Shown: positions 6,725 to 19,928, counted from the first letter of the stretch. The stretch: 64,000 bases of DNA from Natranaerobius thermophilus JW/NM-WN-LF (GCF_000020005.1 NC_010718.1:2810001-2874000); one strand, 5' to 3'. Notes: a model not told the origin generated them from the letters alone. Made by a program: numbers and translations.

Positions 6725-7120
6725 TTATGTTTGATTTTTATTTCTTATTTTTTCTACCAATTCATCAAGAATTATAAATAATTGTTCTTCTTTTATTGGT
6801 TTAACTAAATAATATACAGAATTACTGTCAAGTGACTGCAATGCGATTCCAGAATAAACTGTTATAAAAATAAATTCAATATCAGGTATACTTTTCTTAA
6901 TCCTTTTGGCCGCATCTAAGTATGCATTATTGTTATTTTTATTTGTCAATTCTACATCAATCAAAGCTATATCAATATTACAATCTTTACATATTTCAAT
7001 AGCTTCGCTTTCACTTGAAGTAGAATATACATTGTTAACGTATCTATTTTTCTTGACGAGTTTATGATAATATTTTTGAGTATAATAATCAACTTCTAAA
7101 ATCAAAATATCCACATACAT
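6725..7120 (-). CDS. receiver-only response regulator of agr-type locus 1
   Basis: A 131-residue stand-alone CheY-like receiver domain. The phospho-acceptor is Asp55 (IALIDVEL), the switch Thr lies in FITVYSG near 87, and the conserved Lys is in YLVKPI near 108. No DNA-binding domain follows, whereas AgrA-family regulators normally carry a C-terminal LytTR domain. The first acidic pocket reads ILILEVD, with Val10 where the paralogue at 15701-16099 has Asp, so metal binding may be altered. It lies just behind the agrD-like gene, with a weak terminator between. The partner kinase is presumably the GHKL protein upstream. How it produces an output is unknown. Confidence 0.8.
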   Translation of the reverse strand: MYVDILILEVDYYTQKYYHKLVKKNRYVNNVYSTSSESEAIEICKDCNIDIALIDVELTNKNNNNAYLDAAKRIKKSIPDIEFIFITVYSGIALQSLDSNSVYYLVKPIKEEQLFIILDELVEKIRNKNQT

Positions 7121-7164
7121 TGGGTATCATCCTCACTTGTTCTAATGTGCTGAATTTACTAAGC

Positions 7165-7192
7165 AAAAAACAAGGCGGTAATATAACCGCCC
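7165..7192 (-). terminator. terminator or attenuator between agrD1 and the regulator gene
   Basis: A 6-bp GC stem (GGCGGT 7174-7179 with ACCGCC 7186-7191) is followed on the minus strand by TTGTTTTTTGC. It would stop or reduce transcription between the peptide gene and the response regulator gene, giving more peptide message than regulator message. The short stem suggests partial read-through. Confidence 0.65.
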
Positions 7193-7210
7193 TGTTTACG
7201 TCTCATTTCC

Positions 7211-7342
7211 TCATCTAAAGTATTTTTTCAGTTTGGTAGGGACTTCGGGCTCATGTAAATAGTAAATACTTGCAGTACTAACTCCTAATAGAGCAACTAA
7301 ACTAAGGACTTTAGCAATCACAACAAAGGCCTGTCTTTTCAA
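7211..7342 (-). CDS. agrD: AgrD-like cyclic lactone autoinducer precursor (locus 1)
   Basis: A 43-residue peptide gene starting at TTG 7342, 9 nt after AAAGGAGG, directly behind agrB. The layout is that of AgrD: an amphipathic hydrophobic leader (residues 1-20), a core, and a charged tail. The core and tail read GVSTASIYYLHEPEVPTKL, which lines up with staphylococcal AgrD around the (D/H)EPxVPxxL recognition tail. The residue at the ring position is Ser25, not Cys, predicting a five-residue lactone ring from Ser25 to Leu29 and AgrB cleavage before His30. Serine-type rings are known in some staphylococci (S. intermedius group). The exocyclic tail length cannot be read from sequence. The second locus encodes a paralogue with the same GVSTAS block. 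Confidence 0.85.
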   Translation of the reverse strand: MKRQAFVVIAKVLSLVALLGVSTASIYYLHEPEVPTKLKKYFR

Positions 7343-7344
7343 AA

Positions 7345-7974
7345 TTATGCCTCCTTTCTTTCTTGATTATTTACTAATAATCTCATATCCAAATGACTTA
7401 TTATCTTAAAGCTAGTTGAAGTTATTAAAAGGCTGGCAAAAGTACCGCTTAAAAGGGACAAATATCCATGTAATGGACTTACATAGTAAAACAATCCACC
7501 TGTGATCATTATCCAGGCAATGGAAACTATTTTAGGAAAGATATATGTTTTTTTGTAATCTTGATACCCCTTTTTGTCTTTATTCCAAACTGCCGGGGCA
7601 TATTTTAATATCCAATAAATTGAAGTCGAAAACAATAGAGCAGAAATAAAAGCTATTCCTTTGATTGAAGTTGGGAGAAAATCTGCTACCCAAATAATCA
7701 TAAGTATCATTACCAGGGTTGAGAACAAGCATTTTGTATAACATTGGAAGTGGGTGCCCCCTATCACTGTTCGCATTATCCCAAAAACTGCCATAACCAA
7801 TATAAATTCAGGTAAAATTCCCAGTAATAACCCCACTGTTAAAAAGACTACCCCCTTGATAACTGCACCAATTATCACTTCAAGGGCATAGCTATATACT
7901 TCTATATCTTCTTGGTCTCGATTGAGTTCAGAACCCACTTTGTTTGCCAAAAGATTAGATAATCTTTTTATCAT
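7345..7974 (-). CDS. agrB: AgrB-like peptide-processing membrane protease (locus 1)
   Basis: A 209-residue integral membrane protein that cuts and cyclises the AgrD peptide. The catalytic pair is clear: IGGTHFQCYTKC gives His75 and Cys82, the same spacing as the His77/Cys84 pair of S. aureus AgrB. About five or six hydrophobic segments are present. The reading frame extends to a GTG at 7992, but the ribosome site GAGGAGG lies inside that extension, so ATG 7974, 9 nt behind it, is the true start. The gene overlaps the kinase gene by 20 bp, and agrD follows within 2 bp. Confidence in the family is high because of the motif and the neighbour genes. Confidence 0.93.
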   Translation of the reverse strand: MIKRLSNLLANKVGSELNRDQEDIEVYSYALEVIIGAVIKGVVFLTVGLLLGILPEFILVMAVFGIMRTVIGGTHFQCYTKCLFSTLVMILMIIWVADFLPTSIKGIAFISALLFSTSIYWILKYAPAVWNKDKKGYQDYKKTYIFPKIVSIAWIMITGGLFYYVSPLHGYLSLLSGTFASLLITSTSFKIISHLDMRLLVNNQERKEA

Positions 7975-8827
7975 CACTAGTTTCCTCCTCACATAAAGGA
8001 AGGACTAATTCAAAGACTGTTTTAAATTCATTTGAGGTTATTTTTATTTCACCGTGATATTTATCGACAATTTCTTTAACTATATGTAATCCGTATCCTC
8101 TACCACTTCCCTTTGTTGAGTATCCCTGTTCAAAGATTTTAGATTTTTGCGAATCCGAAAGTTTAGGACCGCTATTTATAATTCTAATTATTTTGGAATC
8201 ACTTTCTTCATCTTTTAAGAACTCAAGTCCTACATAACGCTTTGTTTTCTTTCTATTCATAACAGCTTCAAAAGAATTATTTAATAAATTTCCCACTATG
8301 GCATTTACATCCCATGACCTGATATTCCATGTGGAAATATCGTCTTTAAAGCCAAAATTAAAATTTATATTTTTATTCTTAGCTAATTTTTTCTGGGTGT
8401 TTAGGGTTACATTGAGAGCTGGATCCTCGACATATAAATACATATCAGTAGTCTTTTGATTTTCAGTAATCTCATTAAGATATTCTTCTGCCTCTTCGAT
8501 TTCTCTTAAAGCTATCATAGCTTTAAGAGTTTGTAGATTTCTTTTATGTTCATGTGCCTGAACATTTAAAGCATCTATTAACATTTTAGTCTTTTCAACA
8601 TAGTTTTGCAGATTTTCTATTTCTACTTCTTTTCTCAATTCTTGTCCGCGAATCCTTAAGAACCATAAGATGAGAAATGAAAAAATAATTACTAAAAAAT
8701 TTATTGAAAGCAATAATAAACTATATGAATGAACATCAATTAAGGGGTGTATTTGAACAATGACACTGGTTACAATAGCTGCATTAATCAAAATTAAAAG
8801 AATTACATATGAATCAATTCGTTTCAT
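7955..8827 (-). CDS. AgrC-like GHKL sensor histidine kinase with short sensor (locus 1)
   Basis: A 290-residue kinase with two membrane helices (about 7-27 and 34-58), a coiled linker, and a kinase core. The phospho-acceptor region is AHEHKRNLQTLKAMI, most likely the His before Glu. The N box is NLLNNSFEAV and the G boxes are FEQGYSTKGSGRGYGLHIV, the GHKL ATPase pattern of AgrC and DcuS-type kinases. Typical AgrC proteins are near 430 residues with six or more helices; here the helices are shared with a separate membrane protein encoded just upstream, whose TGA overlaps at 8830. ATG 8827 is chosen over GTG 8833 because AGGGAG lies 8 nt away. It overlaps agrB by 20 bp. Confidence 0.88.
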   Translation of the reverse strand: MKRIDSYVILLILINAAIVTSVIVQIHPLIDVHSYSLLLLSINFLVIIFSFLILWFLRIRGQELRKEVEIENLQNYVEKTKMLIDALNVQAHEHKRNLQTLKAMIALREIEEAEEYLNEITENQKTTDMYLYVEDPALNVTLNTQKKLAKNKNINFNFGFKDDISTWNIRSWDVNAIVGNLLNNSFEAVMNRKKTKRYVGLEFLKDEESDSKIIRIINSGPKLSDSQKSKIFEQGYSTKGSGRGYGLHIVKEIVDKYHGEIKITSNEFKTVFELVLPLCEEETSDDKKII

Positions 8828-8829
8828 AT

Positions 8830-9327
8830 TCACTTCTCCCTAAAAAGTGATAAATCATTAATATTCATAACGTAAAACTTATAATAATCAATGGTAGCAT
8901 ACAGAACCCAAATTAATAAAATTAACAAAATATTCATTGGTATCACAAAATATGTATCAATTATTTCCTCAGAAGTTGAAATATCAAAGATAATAGAAAA
9001 AAGCACTACAATAAAACTTTCCAAGGGAACAATAATTATCTTGGCAGATAGAGTCGCAATAGCCGACTTATAAAAATCATATTTTAACAAAAATACGCTC
9101 AAAATTATTAAATTTATATGGGTTATTAAAGTATGAAATCCAGTAAATGGGGCTAGTATTCTTGCCAAAAGAAAAATCGGAAAATTAATTATTGCTATAA
9201 GTAAGGCTTTTTTAAGCTCTAGTTCTTCATTAAATAATTTGAATCCCAACTTTAAAATACCAACAACCAATGGTATACCCGCGATAATTGACACCATTTC
9301 CCATTGAAAAAACTCCAATTTAACCAC
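8830..9327 (-). CDS. agr-locus membrane protein, probable detached sensor half of AgrC
   Basis: A 165-residue protein, nearly all membrane helix (about five segments). It resembles the N-terminal sensor part of AgrC in size and helix content, and the sum of this protein and the kinase (165+290) equals a full AgrC. Its stop overlaps the kinase gene, so the two are translationally coupled and probably assemble together. A paralogue (169 residues when repaired) occupies the same place in locus 2, sharing a VGFKL-like block near residue 28. The GTG at 9327 follows AGG too closely; TTG 9318, 5 nt behind AGGGTGG, is an alternative start. The sensor role is inferred from position, not from a known domain. 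Confidence 0.75.
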   Translation of the reverse strand: MVKLEFFQWEMVSIIAGIPLVVGILKLGFKLFNEELELKKALLIAIINFPIFLLARILAPFTGFHTLITHINLIILSVFLLKYDFYKSAIATLSAKIIIVPLESFIVVLFSIIFDISTSEEIIDTYFVIPMNILLILLIWVLYATIDYYKFYVMNINDLSLFREK

Positions 9328-11312: not shown

Positions 11313-12716
11313 TTATTCATTACGAATTGCCACTATAGGGCTGAGCTTAATGGCTCTCATGGCCGGATAAAGGCCGGAAATCAATCCTATTAATATTGCA
11401 AACCCTAGAGCAAATAAAGCTAACCAGACTGGGATAATGGAGATCTGCACTGATTCAGCAGCCGGGTCGGCAACAGGCATGATTCCCCCTTCAACAAATC
11501 TTCCGGCAAACTGATTTAGCAAATGGGATGCACCGTAACTTACAGCCAGGCCAATCACTCCACCAAAAAAACCTATCAGAGAAGCTTCTGTAAGGAACAT
11601 AGCCCTAATATCAGAAGCAGAAGCCCCAATAACTTTTATTACTCCAATTTCCTTGGTCCGCTCGTAAATTGACATGACCATAGTATTGGTAATACTCAAG
11701 GCTGCAACTAGGAGTGTGATTCCTCCAATTCCTCCCAAAATAGCTTGAATAGTACGTGAGGTGTTTTCCACTCCTTCCAGGGCATCTGAAGCGGAATAAG
11801 CATTGTATCCCATATCCCGCAAATTATCTGATAGTTCCCGGGCACTTTCTATACTGTCGGCTCTAATTTTTATCGAATCATATTCTTTTTCCTGGTCTCG
11901 CTGCTGCCTGCTTTGCTGCTGAGCGGCGCCTTGCCCCCCCATAGCAGCTGTTTCCTGCCGGGCATCCTCAATCCCTTCATAAACAAAGTCTCGAATCCGA
12001 TCTATATCTTCTAAAGAGGCATATACTTGTGAGGATCTCTGCATACTCTCGTCATCTAAAATTCCAACAACAAAAAAGTTGTGCCTTTGCTGCCTTTCAC
12101 GGTCAGCCCGATTGTGGAATGTAACCTGAACACTTTCTTCTAATAGTTCAGTTGGCTCACGTTCTTCATGGCCACCAGTTGAACCAGGGGCTCCAGGTCC
12201 TTGCTCTACCCTGGGATCGCGAAAAGTATTAATTACCTGGGGACCAGCCACGACGGTATAACTTTCCTCCGCTCGAGGAAGCCGACCATCTTGTAAGCTG
12301 AACTCCAGTTCTTCCATGGTTTCAACGTCGACTCCAACCATGCGAAAATGTCCTTCTTCCCTGCCCATCTGAGCTTCACCCCTAACTTCATAGGTGGGTG
12401 AAACTGCACTAACTCCCGGCATGGATTTAAATTTTTCCACAGCTTCTTCGTCAAGCCCCACTTCTTCTTGAGATGTGCTTTCTGCAGCTTCGGGATTTTC
12501 CGGATCATGATGCATACCTGGATTGACCTGAATAATATTAAGATCACCCCAGCGTGCCATACTTTCTTCCATACTGGCTTGAAGACCTATTCCCAGGGAA
12601 ATCATAACCACAATAGATGCAGTCCCAATGACCACCCCCATACAGGTCAATATGGTACGCACTTTACGTCTCCAAAGATTTTTATTGGCTAAAATGAGCA
12701 GATCTGCCTTACGCAT
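11313..12716 (-). CDS. MacB/FtsX-type ABC transporter permease
   Basis: A 467-residue permease of the MacB/LolC exporter class. The first membrane helix follows ANKNLWRRKVRTILTCMGVVIG. A large extracytoplasmic MacB_PCD domain (about 50-320) comes next, rich in Gln and Glu, and the FtsX domain with three helices begins at about 345 (NTMVMSIYERTKEIGVIKVIGAS is the coupling segment). It ends with LYPAMRAIKLSPIVAIRNE, the family's usual end. The start is ATG 12716, 7 nt behind GAGGAG; the longer frame to 12764 contains that ribosome site and overlaps the previous gene more. The gene overlaps the CARDB-protein gene by 8 bp. The ATPase is encoded two genes upstream. Such modules export substrates or act on envelope lipids; the cargo is unknown. 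Confidence 0.9.
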   Translation of the reverse strand: MRKADLLILANKNLWRRKVRTILTCMGVVIGTASIVVMISLGIGLQASMEESMARWGDLNIIQVNPGMHHDPENPEAAESTSQEEVGLDEEAVEKFKSMPGVSAVSPTYEVRGEAQMGREEGHFRMVGVDVETMEELEFSLQDGRLPRAEESYTVVAGPQVINTFRDPRVEQGPGAPGSTGGHEEREPTELLEESVQVTFHNRADRERQQRHNFFVVGILDDESMQRSSQVYASLEDIDRIRDFVYEGIEDARQETAAMGGQGAAQQQSRQQRDQEKEYDSIKIRADSIESARELSDNLRDMGYNAYSASDALEGVENTSRTIQAILGGIGGITLLVAALSITNTMVMSIYERTKEIGVIKVIGASASDIRAMFLTEASLIGFFGGVIGLAVSYGASHLLNQFAGRFVEGGIMPVADPAAESVQISIIPVWLALFALGFAILIGLISGLYPAMRAIKLSPIVAIRNE

Positions 12717-14766
12717 CCAGCATCTCCTCTTCTTCCTTTTTTCTACGTCCTCGGCGATATACAAAAAACGCTACAACACCGATGACCGCTAGTAGTGGTA
12801 TGATTACCATAGGACTCCAGAAAGAGTCCATACTGCCACCTTTTTCGTCGGGTCTTGGGGGTTTTTCTTTCATATCTTCTGGCGGTTCCGGTGGTGGTTC
12901 TACCGCCATCTCAAATTCTTCAGTAATTTCCACCTCTTCATTTCGATGGTCAAGATATGAAAATACAAGCTCACCTTCTAAGATCCCCTCTTCATCGGGT
13001 ATAATAGTTCCTTGGTAAAAGTCACTAGTATCCTGTTCTAAGTTACCTACATAATATGATGCTTGCTCTTTGGGAAAGTCTCCTTCCAGCGTTACTGTGA
13101 AATTACTTAGATCTACTTTACCTGAGTTGACAAATTCTGCATTGATAGTTGCCGGCTCTCCCACGTGGGCAGTTGGAGGCGTTTCTACTGACAATACATC
13201 AAAACGGCTTTCTTGAGTAACAGAAATGTTAACATACTCCGTTTCCGTGTATGACTCGGCGTTTTGGTCCTCATATTCTAGTTCGACAGGTACAGTGTAG
13301 GTACGAGCTTCGGCCCCCGGGTCTACATATAACCCGATTTCTTGCTCAACATGGGATCTACCTTGAATATTACGAATATAAAAGCTATTACTTCCCTGTA
13401 CAGGGGAAAAGACAGTTCCACCGCTTCCGCCTTCTTCCCCAATATCTGGAGGATTAATGGAAGCTTTAATATTTTGTATAGGTCTGTCATGGGTATTTTC
13501 AATTAATAAAGATAATGAAAATTCATTCCCGGCCTGAATTTCTCTAGGATCCAAAGTATATTCACTAATAAGTACTTTTGGTTCACCATCTGTCACTAGG
13601 CCTTCATCCACTTCAGTTTTAGCTATCCCTATTTGCTCCGAGGCTTTTGGACGGTCATTTCCATAAGCGTCCTGGTATTCCATCTCCACTTGTAGATCTA
13701 ATACCTCGTTATCTGAAGGCGGAGTAATACCTAGTTCATATTCAAGCTCTTTTTCCTCTTCTCCCTCTAGTGATAAAATATTTTTTACATTGGATGTTCC
13801 AATAGTTCTAACATGATCTCCTGTTAGAGATATTCTGATGTCCTGGGCTTCTTGTTCTCCCAGGTTTTCTACTGTTACTAATCCTTTATACTCTCCTTCT
13901 TCTGTTCCATCTTCTATTTCAAAAGAATCCACCGTTAAAACTGGGAGAGACTCTGCTTCGGGAGTTTCTAAAGGAAGATTTACTGATAAGGTTTCAGAAC
14001 TTTCTCCTGTTTCGTGTCTTTGATCATAAGCAATGTCTAATTCTATACGATTGCTTTCTCTATCTTCCTTTGGTTTTAATTGAAAAGTGATTTGTTCTTG
14101 GTCACCACTTTCTAACGTTTCAACTAAACGTCTATTGCTTACATCAACAAGGTTAAAGTTCTCCAGTTCATTAAGTTCAATATTCAAGTTATTTGCATCC
14201 ACAGCACCCTTGTTTTTTAGCTTTATAGTTGTCTGAAAATCCTCACCTATTTGTGGTGCATCAGGTTCTATAATCACATCTTCCATATCTATAACTGGTT
14301 TGAGATTTTCATATCCTACATCAATTGTCAAAGTAGCTGAACCACTTGAACTGGATTCAAAAAGGACATTTTGACTTTTTAAGTTAATGGAAAGTTGATA
14401 GCTCTTTGATTCTGCATCTTCACTTACTGCTACTGGAATAGTAAGGCTTCTTGTTTCTCCTGGTCCAATCTCATTCAGATCTGGTTCGTCGTGGTCAGGT
14501 TGAGAGTCACGAGTAAAATAAGTTCTTGTAGTTCCTGGTGAATCAACCTCCGCAAATACGTTTCTTGCTTTATGTTCTCCTTCGTTTTTTATAACTAGCT
14601 TAATATAAAAACTTTCACCTGCTATAGCACTCCCAGGTTCCACGTCTTCGATCATTAAGACTGGACTAGGAATGTCATCATCCCCCTCCTGTGCCCAAAC
14701 TAAGCTAGGTGATACAAAAAGAGTTACTGAAATTAAAAAAGCGCATATTGATACAATCTTTTTCAA
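12709..14766 (-). CDS. CARDB/NEW3-repeat surface protein of the ABC module (COG1361-like)
   Basis: A 685-residue envelope protein. It has a signal peptide ending at about VWAQ (residue 25), then five or six repeated beta-sandwich units of the CARDB or NEW3 type with recurring phrases such as ITIxxxGxxxAxNxxxxL and GEPATINAEFVNSGKVDLSN. A proline-rich linker, one membrane helix (about 658-676) and a basic/acidic cytoplasmic tail follow. Proteins of this kind (COG1361) are frequently encoded next to FtsX-type permeases and LolD-type ATPases in Firmicutes and archaea, probably as the outer accessory of the transporter. The start is TTG 14766 behind GGAAGGGGAG. The exact repeat family should be confirmed with a profile search. 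Confidence 0.8.
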   Translation of the reverse strand: MKKIVSICAFLISVTLFVSPSLVWAQEGDDDIPSPVLMIEDVEPGSAIAGESFYIKLVIKNEGEHKARNVFAEVDSPGTTRTYFTRDSQPDHDEPDLNEIGPGETRSLTIPVAVSEDAESKSYQLSINLKSQNVLFESSSSGSATLTIDVGYENLKPVIDMEDVIIEPDAPQIGEDFQTTIKLKNKGAVDANNLNIELNELENFNLVDVSNRRLVETLESGDQEQITFQLKPKEDRESNRIELDIAYDQRHETGESSETLSVNLPLETPEAESLPVLTVDSFEIEDGTEEGEYKGLVTVENLGEQEAQDIRISLTGDHVRTIGTSNVKNILSLEGEEEKELEYELGITPPSDNEVLDLQVEMEYQDAYGNDRPKASEQIGIAKTEVDEGLVTDGEPKVLISEYTLDPREIQAGNEFSLSLLIENTHDRPIQNIKASINPPDIGEEGGSGGTVFSPVQGSNSFYIRNIQGRSHVEQEIGLYVDPGAEARTYTVPVELEYEDQNAESYTETEYVNISVTQESRFDVLSVETPPTAHVGEPATINAEFVNSGKVDLSNFTVTLEGDFPKEQASYYVGNLEQDTSDFYQGTIIPDEEGILEGELVFSYLDHRNEEVEITEEFEMAVEPPPEPPEDMKEKPPRPDEKGGSMDSFWSPMVIIPLLAVIGVVAFFVYRRGRRKKEEEEMLDA

Positions 14767-14850
14767 GAAAATACTCCCCTTCCCTTTTTTGAGATTAGAT
14801 ATTTAAATTAAATAGATAAATTCTATTAAAATTCCTTCATTTAAAAACCT

Positions 14851-15576
14851 CTAATTACTATAAATATCCGTAATATAGCCATCTACCATTTCCACTACCC
14901 TGTCACCATAGGTTGCCACTTCGGTATCATGGGTTACCATAAGCATGGTCTGGCCATTTTCCCTAATTATATTTAATAATAAAGCTAATATTTCTTTTGT
15001 TGTCCTAGTATCTAAGTTACCTGTTGGTTCATCGGCAAAAATCACCCTTGGATTGTTAATTAAAGCTCTTGCTATAGCTACTCGCTGACGCTGTCCACCA
15101 CTCAACTCTCCAGGGCGATGGAGCAGCCTGTCTCCTAATCCTAGCTGCTTTAAAAAAGTTTTCCCCCTCTTCTCCCTCTCCTTCGGTGAAACTCCCTCAA
15201 AAACTAAGGGCATCACGGCATTTTCCAAGGCAGTTAATGAGGGTACCAAATTATACAACTGAAAGATAAATCCAATATATCGACGACGCAAAAGAGTCAT
15301 TTGTCGTTCTGATAACTGGTTAAGCTTATACTTATCGATAAACAGTTCACCTTTAGTGGGACGCTCTAGTCCAGCGGCAATGTTCAATAAAGTAGTTTTC
15401 CCACTACCAGAAGTACCGAGGACAACCACAATTTCCCCGGGTTCAACCTCCAGGTCGACTCCGCTTAAGGCAGAAACGATTTGATTGCCCATTCTATATT
15501 TCTTAATCACATTTCGAGCAGCTATCATCGTGTTATTATCATTTTGATTATTTATAGTAGCAGTTGCAGAATTCAA
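14851..15576 (-). CDS. LolD/MacB-type ABC transporter ATPase
   Basis: A 241-residue ATPase powering the FtsX-type permease downstream. Walker A is GTSGSGKT (about 52-59), the signature is LSGGQRQRVAIARAL, and Walker B is VIFADEPTGNLDT followed by the switch His in MVTHDTEV. The sequence YIGFIFQLYNLVPSLTALENAVMPL is characteristic of the LolD/MacB subfamily. It starts at TTG 15576, about 12 nt from AAGGGGG. The gene lies 85 bp ahead of the CARDB-protein gene and 124 bp behind the end of agr locus 2, separated from it only by a stem-loop without a good T run, so agr-locus transcripts could read into it. Confidence 0.93.
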   Translation of the reverse strand: MNSATATINNQNDNNTMIAARNVIKKYRMGNQIVSALSGVDLEVEPGEIVVVLGTSGSGKTTLLNIAAGLERPTKGELFIDKYKLNQLSERQMTLLRRRYIGFIFQLYNLVPSLTALENAVMPLVFEGVSPKEREKRGKTFLKQLGLGDRLLHRPGELSGGQRQRVAIARALINNPRVIFADEPTGNLDTRTTKEILALLLNIIRENGQTMLMVTHDTEVATYGDRVVEMVDGYITDIYSN

Positions 15577-15700: not shown

Positions 15701-16099
15701 TTAGTCTCCAGTATTGTTTTGACTTTGACTATTGAAATGAGCGATTTCCGTAATGATTTCTAAAAGTTTGTGTTCATCAATAGGCTTGATTAAATACTCA
15801 TAGGGCTTAACAGTACTTGATTCTGTAAAATATGTATTATGAGCTGTCACAAAAATAAATTCAATCTCTGGCACAGCTTGTTTCACCAATTCGGCTGCCT
15901 CTAATCCGCTGTTAACCTTGCCATATAACTCCACATCTACAATTGCAATATGAAATTCATTAGATTTTGCATATTTTACTGCATATTCTGGGGCAGTAGT
16001 TACCACTACTTGCCCGACATATTCGCTCCTAGATATCAATACTTTTAGAAATTTCTGTGTATACGGTTCATCTTCTAGGATCAAAATATTCATCAACAA
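15701..16099 (-). CDS. receiver-only response regulator of agr-type locus 2
   Basis: A 132-residue single receiver domain, the paralogue of the one at 6725-7120. The acidic pocket is intact (ILILEDEP, Glu9/Asp10), the phospho-acceptor is Asp55 (IAIVDVEL), the switch Thr lies in FIFVTAHN and the Lys in YLIKPI near 108. There is no LytTR or other output domain. Its gene begins 23 bp after agrD2. The frame opens with TTG TTG ATG; the start could be TTG 16099 or ATG 16093, and the ribosome site is weak, so translation may be coupled. Output must come from protein contacts or from an unlinked partner. Confidence 0.82.
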   Translation of the reverse strand: MLMNILILEDEPYTQKFLKVLISRSEYVGQVVVTTAPEYAVKYAKSNEFHIAIVDVELYGKVNSGLEAAELVKQAVPEIEFIFVTAHNTYFTESSTVKPYEYLIKPIDEHKLLEIITEIAHFNSQSQNNTGD

Positions 16100-16122
16100 A
16101 GCTCACACATCCTTGTTTGAAT

Positions 16123-16248
16123 TTAGTTAGTAAATTTGGATGGTGTTTTGGGTTCGTGCATTAGACCAAGGCTAGCTGTGCTAACTCCTAATAGAGCAAC
16201 TAATTTTAATAAGATTGCCACATTTGTTAAAATTTTAGATTTAAGCAT
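16123..16248 (-). CDS. agrD: AgrD-like cyclic lactone autoinducer precursor (locus 2)
   Basis: A 41-residue peptide gene starting at ATG 16248 and overlapping the end of agrB2 by 8 bp, with GGAGGG 7 nt ahead. The leader is hydrophobic (AILLKLVALL), and the core and tail read GVSTASLGLMHEPKTPSKF. By alignment with its paralogue, Ser26 occupies the ring position and the predicted macrocycle is Ser26 to Met30, with cleavage before His31. Both peptides in the window share GVSTAS and HEP but differ in the four ring residues that normally set receptor specificity, so the two loci probably use separate signals. Confidence 0.85.
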   Translation of the reverse strand: MLKSKILTNVAILLKLVALLGVSTASLGLMHEPKTPSKFTN

Positions 16249-16852
16249 TTTTTACCCTCCTTTTATTTAATAAATTTTTAAAATACCTTATAATTTTATA
16301 AGGCCAAGACATGATAAGTATATAAGCACTGCCACAAGATAGCAGACTTAGCCAGCCATAAATATACTCCCGTTGAAAAAGTTGAATAGATATGCCAGTC
16401 CAAACAATTAATAATATAAAAGCAAATCGCTTTTTGTTTTGTTCATTAATCAATTTATGATTAACCGTGACAGGAACTATCTTATAATTTAAGTATAATC
16501 CTAAGCTGATTAATATTAGCAATCCAAGGGTAAATAGTATTTGGGACGAGGGCATAAACTTGGAGAAAGTAGCTAGCCCTAAAAAGAGCAAAAGGCTTAT
16601 CAAAAGACATACCCAGAAATTTTCAGAGTGATGCCCTCCTATAACTAACCTAAAGCATCCAAACGCAAGAAAAAATATCAAGAGTTCTATGATCATGTGG
16701 AAAACAAAGGCAGCTGAAAAGAAAACCAAACCCTTAATTATAAAGCCCAGTATCAGCTGAAAAGCATAGGAGTAAACTTCTGCTTCCTGTTCATTTTGAT
16801 TTAGATTGGATGCTAATAACTCCGCTAATTTATCAGAAATCTGTTCAAGCAG
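16241..16852 (-). CDS. agrB: AgrB-like peptide-processing protease (locus 2), probable CTG start
   Basis: A membrane cysteine protease that processes AgrD2. IGGHHSENFWVC provides His75 and Cys82, matching AgrB1 position for position. The first ATG-type start in frame (16729) would remove about 41 residues that align well with AgrB1 (QISDKLAELLASNLNQNEQ...EVYSYAF). The frame is open upstream to a stop at 16858-16856, and the only codon near a ribosome site (AAAGGGGAG, 7 nt) is CTG 16852, which aligns exactly with the first Met of AgrB1. I therefore propose a CTG start and 203 residues. It overlaps the kinase gene by 8 bp. Confidence 0.85.
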   Translation of the reverse strand: MLEQISDKLAELLASNLNQNEQEAEVYSYAFQLILGFIIKGLVFFSAAFVFHMIIELLIFFLAFGCFRLVIGGHHSENFWVCLLISLLLFLGLATFSKFMPSSQILFTLGLLILISLGLYLNYKIVPVTVNHKLINEQNKKRFAFILLIVWTGISIQLFQREYIYGWLSLLSCGSAYILIMSWPYKIIRYFKNLLNKRRVKNA

Positions 16853-17720
16853 TTTTCAACTCCCCTTTCCCAGGGAATTTGATAGAAAAGACGGTTTTTG
16901 AAGAGTCAGATTTAATTTCAATTGTTCCTCGGTTATTTTTGACCACCCTATTGACTATGTAAAGTCCGTAGCCGCTACTGACAGTTTTTTTAGAAGTATA
17001 GCCCGGTTCAAATATTTTTTCCTGTTTTGGTTTGGAAATTTTAGGACCATTATTGATTGCATTAATTAAGTATAAACCATTATCCGGATCTTCTAATAGT
17101 TCAATAGCAACGTACTTTTTCTCATTATCATTATTTCTAGATACGGCCTCGAAAGAATTATCTATTAGATTACATATAATAGAATTCAAGTCCCAAGGAT
17201 TAATACCCCATTTTGTAATATCACTTTTTATGCCAATATTAAAATTAATGTCTTTTTCTTCTGCTACTTTTTTCTGGGCATTCAAACTCAAGTTTAATAC
17301 TGGTTCCTTTACATATAAATAACTGCCACCTTCGCTTTTTTTGGAGTTATTTTTGGCTATCTCGTTAATATATTTTTTGGCATCGGTAATTTCATCTAAA
17401 TTCAGCATAGATTGAATAACTTGTAAATGCCTCTTATGCTCATGGGTTTTTGAGTTAAGGGTATTAATGATTTTCTTTGTTTTATCCACATAGTGTTTCA
17501 AGCTCTCATTTTCTACTTCTTTTTTGGCTAACTCGGTATACGACTTCAAAAATAACAGGATTAAAAAAGTAAAAATGATGACAAACACACTAGCCGCCAA
17601 TAACAAAAGGTTATATTCTGTGGAAGGTGACAAATAATAAAGATAGTTCAAGAAAAAAATTACAATATATGTATTTATCAATATCAGGGTTACCAAAATG
17701 ATATTTCTTGTTTTTAACAA
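16845..17720 (-). CDS. AgrC-like GHKL sensor histidine kinase with short sensor (locus 2)
   Basis: A 291-residue paralogue of the locus 1 kinase: two N-terminal membrane helices, an acceptor region KTHEHKRHLQVIQSML, N box NLIDNSFEAV, and G boxes FEPGYTSKKTVSSGYGLYIV. The same LNxxxKxxxEKxINFNxGxKxDI block links the helices and the ATPase domain in both kinases. TTG 17720, 7 nt behind GGAGAG, is the better start; TTG 17735 has a poorer ribosome site. The membrane protein expected upstream is broken by an insertion element, so this kinase may now lack its partner and its native promoter. Confidence 0.87.
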   Translation of the reverse strand: MLKTRNIILVTLILINTYIVIFFLNYLYYLSPSTEYNLLLLAASVFVIIFTFLILLFLKSYTELAKKEVENESLKHYVDKTKKIINTLNSKTHEHKRHLQVIQSMLNLDEITDAKKYINEIAKNNSKKSEGGSYLYVKEPVLNLSLNAQKKVAEEKDINFNIGIKSDITKWGINPWDLNSIICNLIDNSFEAVSRNNDNEKKYVAIELLEDPDNGLYLINAINNGPKISKPKQEKIFEPGYTSKKTVSSGYGLYIVNRVVKNNRGTIEIKSDSSKTVFSIKFPGKGELKTA

Positions 17721-18107
17721 GATTACTCTCTCCAATCTTTCCGATGTGAAGTTTTATTTGAAATGGCATATTAATCTAACTAGATTACACCGAACTAGTC
17801 TTGATTTGCCTCTTTTGAAAGGTCAATTACATATAATTGCTTTTGTGAAATAAACTTGTAGATGAAATATAATATCGATAATATTAAAATTAGGTAAATT
17901 AAATAAAATTGAATACCCAAAATTTCTGAATGATCTATTAATTCAGTGATACTAACCCCCCACATAATACTTAAAATAGTGATTAAAAAGGGCTCTAAAA
18001 CATTAAAAATCAAAACCCCAATAAAAAAACCTAAAAAGCTTACGTTATTGTAAAATTACTGTAGGATTTTTTGGAGAAAGCAGGAAGGAAAGGAAGCAAA
18101 AAAGAAG

Positions 18108-18170
18108 AGGAACCTCACATTCTCCGCACGAGAATGAAGTATACCCAAAAAAGTAAGGAGTGAGGTTCCT
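18108..18170 (+). promoter_or_regulatory. hairpin covering the transposase ribosome site
   Basis: AGGAACCTCAC (18108-18118) pairs perfectly with GTGAGGTTCCT (18160-18170), with a nested ATTCTC/GAGAAT pair at 18119-18135. The second arm ends one base before the transposase start codon and overlaps the end of its ribosome site TAAGGAG. It would hide the site in read-through transcripts from outside the element, a known way of limiting transposase. Confidence 0.7.
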
Positions 18171-18171
18171 C

Positions 18172-19560
18172 ATGGAAATAATTCAACTTGTAGAAGAAAA
18201 AATCCTTCAAGTTTCAGAAAAAGTGTTAAATGTTTTAGACGGAGAAATAGAGTACGATACATTCACAAAGCTACTAAAAGAAGAGCTAGACGGTTTAGGT
18301 AGTGATATTCTTAAAGAAGTACTAGAAGCATTGGATGCCCAAATAAAAGAAAATAGAAGAGATCGTAAAGGTTGGGTCGTAGAAAGGAAAGCTGACCCCA
18401 AGAGTATCTTAACCCCATTTGGTGATATGGTATACAACCGAACATATTATAAAAATAAAGAAACAGGTGAATATAAATATCTAGCTGATGAAAAAGCTGG
18501 CATAACCTCACATATGCGAGTAGATTCTACTTTAAAATCAGATATAGCTGATGCAGCCACTAAGGTGTCGTATGAGAAAGCGACAGAAGAAGTGAGTAGG
18601 TTTAACCAAGACCTAAAATTAAGTAAACAGACAGTAGCCAATACAGTGAAAGAATTTGAATTAGAACCTCTAGAGCAACCAGAAGAAAAGAAAAAAGTAT
18701 CAAACCTTTACATAGAGGCAGATGAAGATCATTTGTCTATGCAAACTTCGAAGAGATCTGAAACAAAGCTAATTTATGTCCATGAAGGAATAAAAGGTAA
18801 AAAACGTAGATCTCTTAAAAATTGTCAACATTTCACAACAATAACTGAATCCCCGGATAAATTTTGGTTAACAGTATGTGACTATATCGAATCACATTAT
18901 GACACAAAGGACACAAATATTTTCATATCAGGAGATGGGGCTAAATGGATCCGAGTAGGTGAAGAATATATCCCAAATGCGACATATATATTGGATAAAT
19001 TTCATCTATCCAAATACATAATAGCAGCTACCGGTCATGCCCCAAAGCTAAGGAGACAGATATATAAGAACATTAAAAACCTAGATCAAGAAGCAGTATT
19101 TGAAAATTTACAAGAAGCACTTACAAAGGCAGATACAGAAGCTAGACAGAAACGCATAATGGCAACAATTAAATATATTAAAAACAACTGGGATGGCATA
19201 GAGGCATCAGTAAACCACCCTGAAGTAGGTTGTAGTGCTGAAGGCCATGTAAGCCATATTTTAGCATCAAGAATGAGTAGTCGACCAATGGCCTGGAGTG
19301 AAAAAGGCGCAACTAAAATGGCCGAGATGTTGGCTACAAAAGCTAATGGAAAATCAGTAAAAGAAGCTTACTTATCCACAAAAGGTCGTCAAGAAGCTGA
19401 AATAGTTAACCTACAGAACCAAATAAAACAAGAACTAAAAAAACTTACAACTAAAAAGAAACTAGGAAAAGCCAACAATGGCAATGTACCTTTGATGAAT
19501 GGAAAGTACAACTTAACAAGAACGGCTATAAAAGGGTTGAACAGGAAACAGATTATCTAG
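18172..19560 (+). CDS. ISLre2-family (UPF0236) transposase
   Basis: A 462-residue transposase of the UPF0236/ISLre2 group. Recognisable blocks are GWVVERKADPKSILTPFGDMVYNRTYYKNKETGEYKYLADE, the acidic block LYIEADEDHLSMQ, the region ISGDGAKWI, and the YILDKFHLSKY segment, which supply the conserved acidic residues of this family. A late GCSAEGHVSHILASRMSSRPMAW block is also typical. I start it at ATG 18172 (MEIIQLVEEKI) behind AAGGAG, not at GTG 18160, which lies in the hairpin arm. Length and ends look complete. Confidence 0.92.
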   Translation: MEIIQLVEEKILQVSEKVLNVLDGEIEYDTFTKLLKEELDGLGSDILKEVLEALDAQIKENRRDRKGWVVERKADPKSILTPFGDMVYNRTYYKNKETGEYKYLADEKAGITSHMRVDSTLKSDIADAATKVSYEKATEEVSRFNQDLKLSKQTVANTVKEFELEPLEQPEEKKKVSNLYIEADEDHLSMQTSKRSETKLIYVHEGIKGKKRRSLKNCQHFTTITESPDKFWLTVCDYIESHYDTKDTNIFISGDGAKWIRVGEEYIPNATYILDKFHLSKYIIAATGHAPKLRRQIYKNIKNLDQEAVFENLQEALTKADTEARQKRIMATIKYIKNNWDGIEASVNHPEVGCSAEGHVSHILASRMSSRPMAWSEKGATKMAEMLATKANGKSVKEAYLSTKGRQEAEIVNLQNQIKQELKKLTTKKKLGKANNGNVPLMNGKYNLTRTAIKGLNRKQII

Positions 19561-19928
19561 GAGAATTAAGGTTTCTTTTTAACCTACAGTGGCTTGACAC
19601 GATCAAAGCTTACATATGGCTTGAAGTTAAAAATCAAATATGTTATTAGAGTAATTGCTATCACAAATATCAGGGAGTGCAGTGCATGAAAGATATCCAA
19701 GGATCGGACCAAGACTAAAATTGGTGCACCTATTAGTGCAATAATAACTGCTCTTTTTTTAGAAATATCTACATTAATCAATTTAAAACCAACCTGAGTC
19801 ATAGCAAAAATTTCAAATAAACCAATAAAAAGAGGTATTAAAATCTCAGATATTCCTATGTCTAAATTCATCATTTTTTATCACCTATTTTTGAAATTAT
19901 TTTAAACTTGTCAGTTTAAGCCCTCCTG

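Follow-up and report, generated by a model that had tools for sequence, protein, structure and literature searches.

The agr system of Staphylococcus aureus is the reference for the locus described here, which lies at positions 6725-9327 of a 64,000-nucleotide stretch of the Natranaerobius thermophilus JW/NM-WN-LF chromosome (GCF_000020005.1 NC_010718.1:2810001-2874000; the whole stretch is hereafter called the window). As in S. aureus, AgrB carries a His/Cys pair, AgrD has a five-residue ring before an acidic-Pro tail, and a GHKL kinase aligns to AgrC residues 145-396. The N. thermophilus system differs in having AgrC as two proteins (a membrane protein, MEM, and a kinase, KIN), Ser for Cys in the ring, a linked regulator (REC) without LytTR, and two paralogous loci together with a decayed third. 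Ser is also the ring-forming residue in fsr of Enterococcus faecalis and in agr of S. intermedius, where, unlike in the loci described here, the sensor is undivided and the regulator carries LytTR.

The single-domain regulators MrrA and the CckA inhibitor are not known to descend from a LytTR regulator. Like REC, they are receivers without an output domain; they tune kinases or act as a hub, as REC may do, and differ in being Alphaproteobacterial and outside agr (PMC5964349, PMC9430884). The agr3 genes of C. difficile and agrBDC of phage phiCDHM1 resemble the present loci in having no linked DNA-binding AgrA, and an unlinked response regulator has been proposed for them; they differ in that no receiver gene is present and a single AgrC is described as the sensor (PMC3901668).

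We read the window as holding two diverged agr operons with a two-protein AgrC, in which REC would take up phosphate as a sink, brake or carrier and output would come from unlinked LytTR regulators. We assign this reading a probability of roughly 0.5. Its starting points, namely gene content, homology, paralogy, the lost LytTR domain, the pattern of residues and a tally of kinases and regulators, can be read directly from sequence comparisons; the genome analysed comprises 3,191,453 bp in 3 contigs.

Two agr-type loci with receiver-only regulators

An earlier note on this DNA had described five tightly packed genes in the order membrane protein, kinase, AgrB, AgrD-like peptide and lone receiver. 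Open reading frames (ORFs) and family matches bear this out: all five genes at 6725-9327 lie on the minus strand and are intact (Table 1). MEM1 and KIN1 are two separate genes in different frames, overlapping by four bases (GTGA). MEM1 alone matched no Pfam family; KIN1 matched PF14689 (SPOB_a) and PF14501 (HATPase_c_5, E = 2e-15), and aligned to the NCBIfam AgrC model NF046015 only from AgrC residue 145 to 396.

A paralogous second operon with the same gene order, overlooked in the note, lies 9 kb away at 15701-19874. The GGxH...C pair is present in both AgrBs, and both kinases retain HEHKR, the N-box and GYGL. The arrangement is far beyond chance, since it recurs in the paralogous copy in the window and in other families. 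The loci contain an AgrB with catalytic His and Cys, an AgrD precursor adjoining agrB, and an AgrC sensor and GHKL kinase as two proteins; in neither copy is there a LytTR-bearing AgrA at the locus. Judged by gene content, both are agr-type systems without a linked AgrA and not canonical agr.

To the two window loci we added 80 further agrB loci. They come from the 63 of 149 genomes with agrB in a phylum sample, which holds mostly one genome per family and covers part of one phylum. The resulting 82 loci were classified by profiles grown from the window genes, and those on truncated contigs were kept in. LytTR was present in 22 of the 24 agr loci with a linked regulator, the receiver-only loci being the two of the window; the lone receiver singled out earlier was thus seen beside agr in no other locus. 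Profile searches for the gene order recovered it elsewhere with a LytTR regulator, whereas the receiver-only form was found only in N. thermophilus. Among the recovered loci, L174 (from G115) and L175 (from G112) belong to other families of the phylum and share the order (MEM-KIN-AgrB-AgrD-LytTR) and the split sensor. They have the closest AgrBs and receivers, with a kinase motif HEHxR[HN] as seen in G115, and differ in that the regulator, at 240-241 amino acids (aa), is complete with its LytTR domain.

In a search of 398 genomes, the best-matching receivers outside the N. thermophilus genome all lay in frames of at least 199 aa, and among the best-matching receivers the output domain was missing only in REC1 and REC2. 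A search of 63 genomes of another class returned one receiver-only relative, L173 in G406 (141 aa in a 146-aa frame), which lies away from agrB. Its LytTR-type output (a4-b5) motif is intact, and it is probably a recent truncation. A literature search, with most subscription journals outside it, found no receiver-only agr regulator and no agr in Natranaerobius.

In the receiver tree, REC1 and REC2 paired (93/63) within a supported clade (97/89) of LytTR regulators from the same family, which includes a third-copy LytTR pseudogene and the orphan regulators L119 and L120. This placement indicates that REC1 and REC2 are AgrA-type regulators that have lost LytTR. A sensitive LytTR profile search downstream of REC1 and REC2 detected no fossil of the domain and was positive in the third-copy pseudogene (E = 2e-24). 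The earlier note had allowed for an AgrA truncated by local error. Descent from an AgrA-type LytTR regulator holds, and local error is rejected on three grounds: no fossil is present, two paralogs both lack LytTR, and the output face is eroded. Most likely, LytTR was lost before the two copies diverged.

Phosphorylation core and output face of the receivers

The a4-b5 face of response regulators normally serves dimerisation and output. We compared the residues of REC1 and REC2 with those of 17 LytTR-bearing relatives. The phosphorylation core is kept in both receivers (b3 with D55, 7/7; T87; K107 region, 4/4). Of the 13 conserved columns in the a4-b5 stretch YALxSFxVHPYDY, REC1 keeps 6 and REC2 keeps 8; in the LytTR-bearing relatives this stretch is among the most conserved segments, with a mean of 96% and a minimum of 92% (leave-one-out). 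Of the residues expected in a single-domain response regulator (Asp, Thr/Ser, Lys and an acidic pair), REC2 retains all, and REC1 retains D55, T87 and K107 with V at the second position of its acidic pair (LEVD in place of LEDE). The predicted fold of REC1 is a normal receiver that matches receivers in the PDB (predicted local distance difference test, pLDDT, 82), with the lowest confidence at a4. This pattern indicates that REC1 and REC2 have retained the phosphorylation site and that constraint on the output face was lost over the long term.

Because the phospho-acceptor chemistry is kept and the a4-b5 output and dimerisation face is not, the most likely role of REC would be that of a phosphate sink, brake or carrier. 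Loss of the standard face could also mean a new binding surface, by which phosphorylated REC would bind a target protein directly and signal with no LytTR regulator. Single-domain regulators that act on proteins have been described (PMC5964349, PMC9430884, PMC12802240), and REC2 is followed immediately, on its own strand, by an ATP-binding cassette (ABC) exporter operon. If the two receivers had gained a new interface in common, however, a shared replacement would be expected, and none is obvious between the eroded faces of REC1 and REC2; nor does any partner gene co-travel with the two receivers. We regard signalling by direct contact as rather unlikely.

Unlinked LytTR regulators as candidate outputs

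Four LytTR proteins were found in the genome: L121, which has its own GHKL kinase, the third-copy pseudogene, and L119 and L120, which are full-length LytTR regulators with no kinase in the 11-kb segment surrounding each. Four kinases resemble AgrC, namely KIN1, KIN2, the one paired with L121 and that of the dead third copy, other matches to the GHKL profile being weak. Two kinases without a DNA-binding partner thus stand against two LytTR regulators without a kinase, and the receivers all belong to one clade. From this tally we infer that KIN1 and KIN2 drive L119 and L120, with REC1 and REC2 competing for phosphate or carrying it. The earlier note had already suggested that the signal is read out through protein contact or through an unlinked partner; L119 and L120, the kinase-less LytTR regulators of this genome, are concrete candidates for such a partner. 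A parallel for unlinked wiring is found in C. difficile, where agrB1D1 is driven by RgaR, an orphan regulator that is paired with an orphan kinase (PMC11210211). The L121 pair (L121:5072-6663; C2:1650-1652 kb) consists of an intact GHKL kinase and LytTR regulator without agrBD, adjoining an ABC transporter.

In the route that we favour, AgrB would cut AgrD and close a serine lactone of five residues, SIYYL for copy 1 and SLGLM for copy 2. Sensing of the lactone would fall to a two-protein AgrC, a presumed complex of MEM as the sensor half with KIN. KIN would then autophosphorylate on the His of HEHKR and pass the phosphate to the linked REC, which most likely would tune the same kinase as a sink, brake or carrier. 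Gene-level output would most likely proceed via the kinase-less L119 and L120 elsewhere on the chromosome.

Several observations weigh against this route or parts of it. The pairing of REC1 with REC2 (93/63) is not starred in the tree, and two independent losses of LytTR are possible. The lost acidic-pocket residue in REC1 could weaken its phosphorylation. In G001, which belongs to the same family, an orphan LytTR regulator groups with L120 (98/88) although the KIN genes of that genome have decayed, so that L120 may answer to another input. Direct repeats of the LytTR type were sought upstream of all three copies and of the orphan regulators, and nothing rose above shuffled sequence. Finally, copy 2 may be inactive, given its interrupted MEM2 and the non-standard start of agrB2.

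Paralogous copies and decay in the lineage

MEM2 is split by an insertion sequence (Table 1), and joining its flanks as an empty site gives a single 169-aa ORF. The only in-frame start that yields a full-length AgrB2 is a CTG at 16852, the first ATG, GTG or TTG being at 16729. Some 37 kb ahead of the window there is a third, dead agr copy (L122:4040-5908; C2:2771-2773 kb). It consists of a MEM fragment, a frameshifted KIN, a frameshifted LytTR regulator and the first ~20 codons of agrB, the body of which is lost; the agrB remnant is 77% identical to AgrB1 over 22 residues. G001 contains two KIN relics (L167:4955-5394 and L168:4771-5191), one of them followed by a remnant agrB start. Remains of this kind indicate that agr operons have repeatedly decayed in the family of N. 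thermophilus and G001.

The receivers might then be leftovers of decaying operons, with little function in a dying system. The pseudogenised third copy, the relics in G001, the interrupted MEM2 and the long REC branches would all fit. Against this, none of the five genes of copy 1 is broken and a 4-base translational overlap is kept, and both receivers have retained open frames and the D, T and K residues across ~60% divergence. Moreover, L173, which looks recently truncated, keeps its a4-b5 motif; REC1 and REC2 thus look like old receiver-only forms. We consider such decay of the receivers improbable.

A Spo0F-like role for REC, in which phosphate would pass via a Spo0B-type protein to Spo0A and agr would feed a sporulation-type relay, is very improbable: the genome has Spo0A, KIN carries SPOB_a, Spo0F is among the structural matches and a true phosphorelay exists in some Clostridia (PMC11210211), but the best matches of REC1 and REC2 are LytTR-type receivers, with which the receiver tree (a tree from which Spo0F and Spo0B sequences were left out) also groups them, SPOB_a is the usual dimerisation domain of KIN's kinase family, and the structural search matches many receivers about equally.

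The split sensor across the phylum

The earlier note had named the two-protein sensor as part of a combination that it knew from no described agr system. Two proteins in separate frames are indeed present, but the arrangement is not unusual: MEM and KIN were split in 38 of the 82 loci as called (about 37, as L079 is probably miscalled) and fused in 15. A further 18 loci had MEM with a GGDEF/HD-GYP protein, and the remainder were mixed. A profile built from stand-alone MEMs only matched the N-terminus of 16/16 fused AgrC-like kinases (E <= 1e-23); otherwise it matched MEM pieces only, plus one weak membrane ORF (E = 7e-4). The NCBIfam AgrC model covered residues 6-395 in a fused relative, compared with 145-396 in KIN1. 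Profile matches and model coverage together identify MEM as the sensor half of AgrC (~residues 6-145), with KIN supplying the last two helices and the kinase.

In the AgrB tree, the two AgrBs of the window are sisters (100/93) and stand beside those of G112 and G115 (99/89), whose loci have a split sensor and LytTR regulators. Since these closest relatives are also split, the arrangement is neither a frameshift nor unique, contrary to the idea that MEM and kinase might be one frameshifted polypeptide in close relatives. A frameshift or sequencing error is likewise rejected by the occurrence of ~37 split loci across many families. Across the AgrB tree, the split or fused arrangement changed several times. 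A small additional survey of 3 genomes around G115 found nothing, and a scan of the genome contigs with the kinase alignment returned one irrelevant match only. No account of a split AgrC was found in the literature search.

The serine ring

The rings of AgrD1 and AgrD2 (SIYYL, SLGLM) comprise five residues immediately following STA, the position in AgrD1 being set by alignment with other AgrDs. The predicted products are five-residue Ser lactones, SIYYL for AgrD1 and SLGLM for AgrD2. A serine ring had been presented as unusual, a claim that the survey does not sustain. A regular-expression search of the AgrDs beside the surveyed agrB genes, which gave two evident false matches, counted Ser in ~40 and Cys in ~33. 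The serine ring as an oddity is rejected, Ser being about as frequent as Cys.

agr loci with GGDEF/HD-GYP proteins

At ~19 of the 82 agr loci, a membrane protein with GGDEF and HD-GYP domains takes the place of the kinase, downstream of MEM, AgrB and AgrD on the same strand (Table 1). These proteins have 512-627 aa and mostly 4-6 transmembrane (TM) segments, with HD-GYP signatures intact in all and the GGDEF motif in most. Their position suggests that agr sensing is coupled to cyclic di-GMP (c-di-GMP) in these loci. The literature search found no agr with GGDEF/HD-GYP.

Tentatively, and at somewhat less than an even chance, agr sensing in the phylum may be modular, with a stand-alone AgrC sensor half that works with a GHKL kinase or, at roughly one in four of the surveyed loci, apparently with a membrane GGDEF/HD-GYP protein. 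In the lineage of N. thermophilus the linked read-out would have shrunk to a bare receiver, which would put a brake on the signal or divert it, and DNA output would have passed to unlinked LytTR regulators. If so, agr signalling would not be bound to one AgrC protein and one AgrA, and the sensor half would be a separable module, common in nature yet without a description in the literature searched. A regulator could survive as a phospho-acceptor after losing the part that binds DNA, and would offer a natural example of how a transcription factor becomes a signalling brake or relay. The paired orphan kinases and orphan LytTR regulators would allow the re-wiring to be tested, and searches by one-piece AgrC or a linked LytTR regulator would miss many agr systems.

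Table 1. Features of the two agr copies and their surroundings, in window coordinates, and surveyed agr loci with GGDEF/HD-GYP proteins.
Feature	Position	Strand	Description
MEM1	8830-9327	-	165 aa, 5 TM; homologous to N-terminal sensor half of AgrC (~residues 6-145)
KIN1	7955-8833	-	292 aa, 2 TM + SPOB_a/GHKL; putative phospho-His in HEHKRN
AgrB1	7345-7992	-	PF04647, E = 7e-31; AgrD-processing peptidase; His75/Cys82 numbered from MIKR
AgrD1	7211-7342	-	43-aa precursor ...GVSTA-SIYYL-HEPEVP...; TIGR04223, E = 5e-11
Terminator-like hairpin	7168-7197	-	between agrD1 and REC1 gene; 12 pairs then T-rich tail; ~1 match per region expected by chance in the scan
REC1	6725-7120	-	131-aa receiver-only regulator; PF00072 only (Response_reg, E = 2.6e-9), no LytTR
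MEM2, N-terminal piece	19584-19874	-	34% identical to MEM1 across 77 residues (E = 1e-10)
Insertion sequence in MEM2	18044-19604	not assigned	1561 bp; imperfect 22-bp inverted repeats (15/22); 9-bp target duplication AAAGCTTAC
UPF0236 transposase of insertion sequence	18160-19560	+	
MEM2, C-terminal piece	17795-18043	-	coordinates include target-site copy
KIN2	16845-17735	-	296-aa kinase paralog; 45% identical to KIN1
AgrB2	16241-16852	-	33% identical to AgrB1; catalytic His/Cys retained
AgrD2	16123-16248	-	41-aa precursor ...GVSTA-SLGLM-HEPKTP...; ring and tail pattern as AgrD1
REC2	15701-16099	-	receiver-only; 38% identical to REC1; retains LEDE as well as D, T and K; likely ATG start at 16093
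ABC exporter ATPase	14851-15576	-	same strand as agr copies
Exported repeat-domain protein	12709-14766	-	ABC exporter operon; same strand as agr copies
MacB/FtsX permease	11313-12764	-	ABC exporter operon; same strand as agr copies
agr loci with GGDEF/HD-GYP protein	L039:3487-6479 (G001)		also L041, L047, L048, L052, L055, L069, L070, L072, L076, L077, L078, L079, L084, L091, L092, L097, L098, L106

The ABC exporter operon occupies 11313-15576, between the two agr copies and on the same strand as both, and is a possible target or partner.

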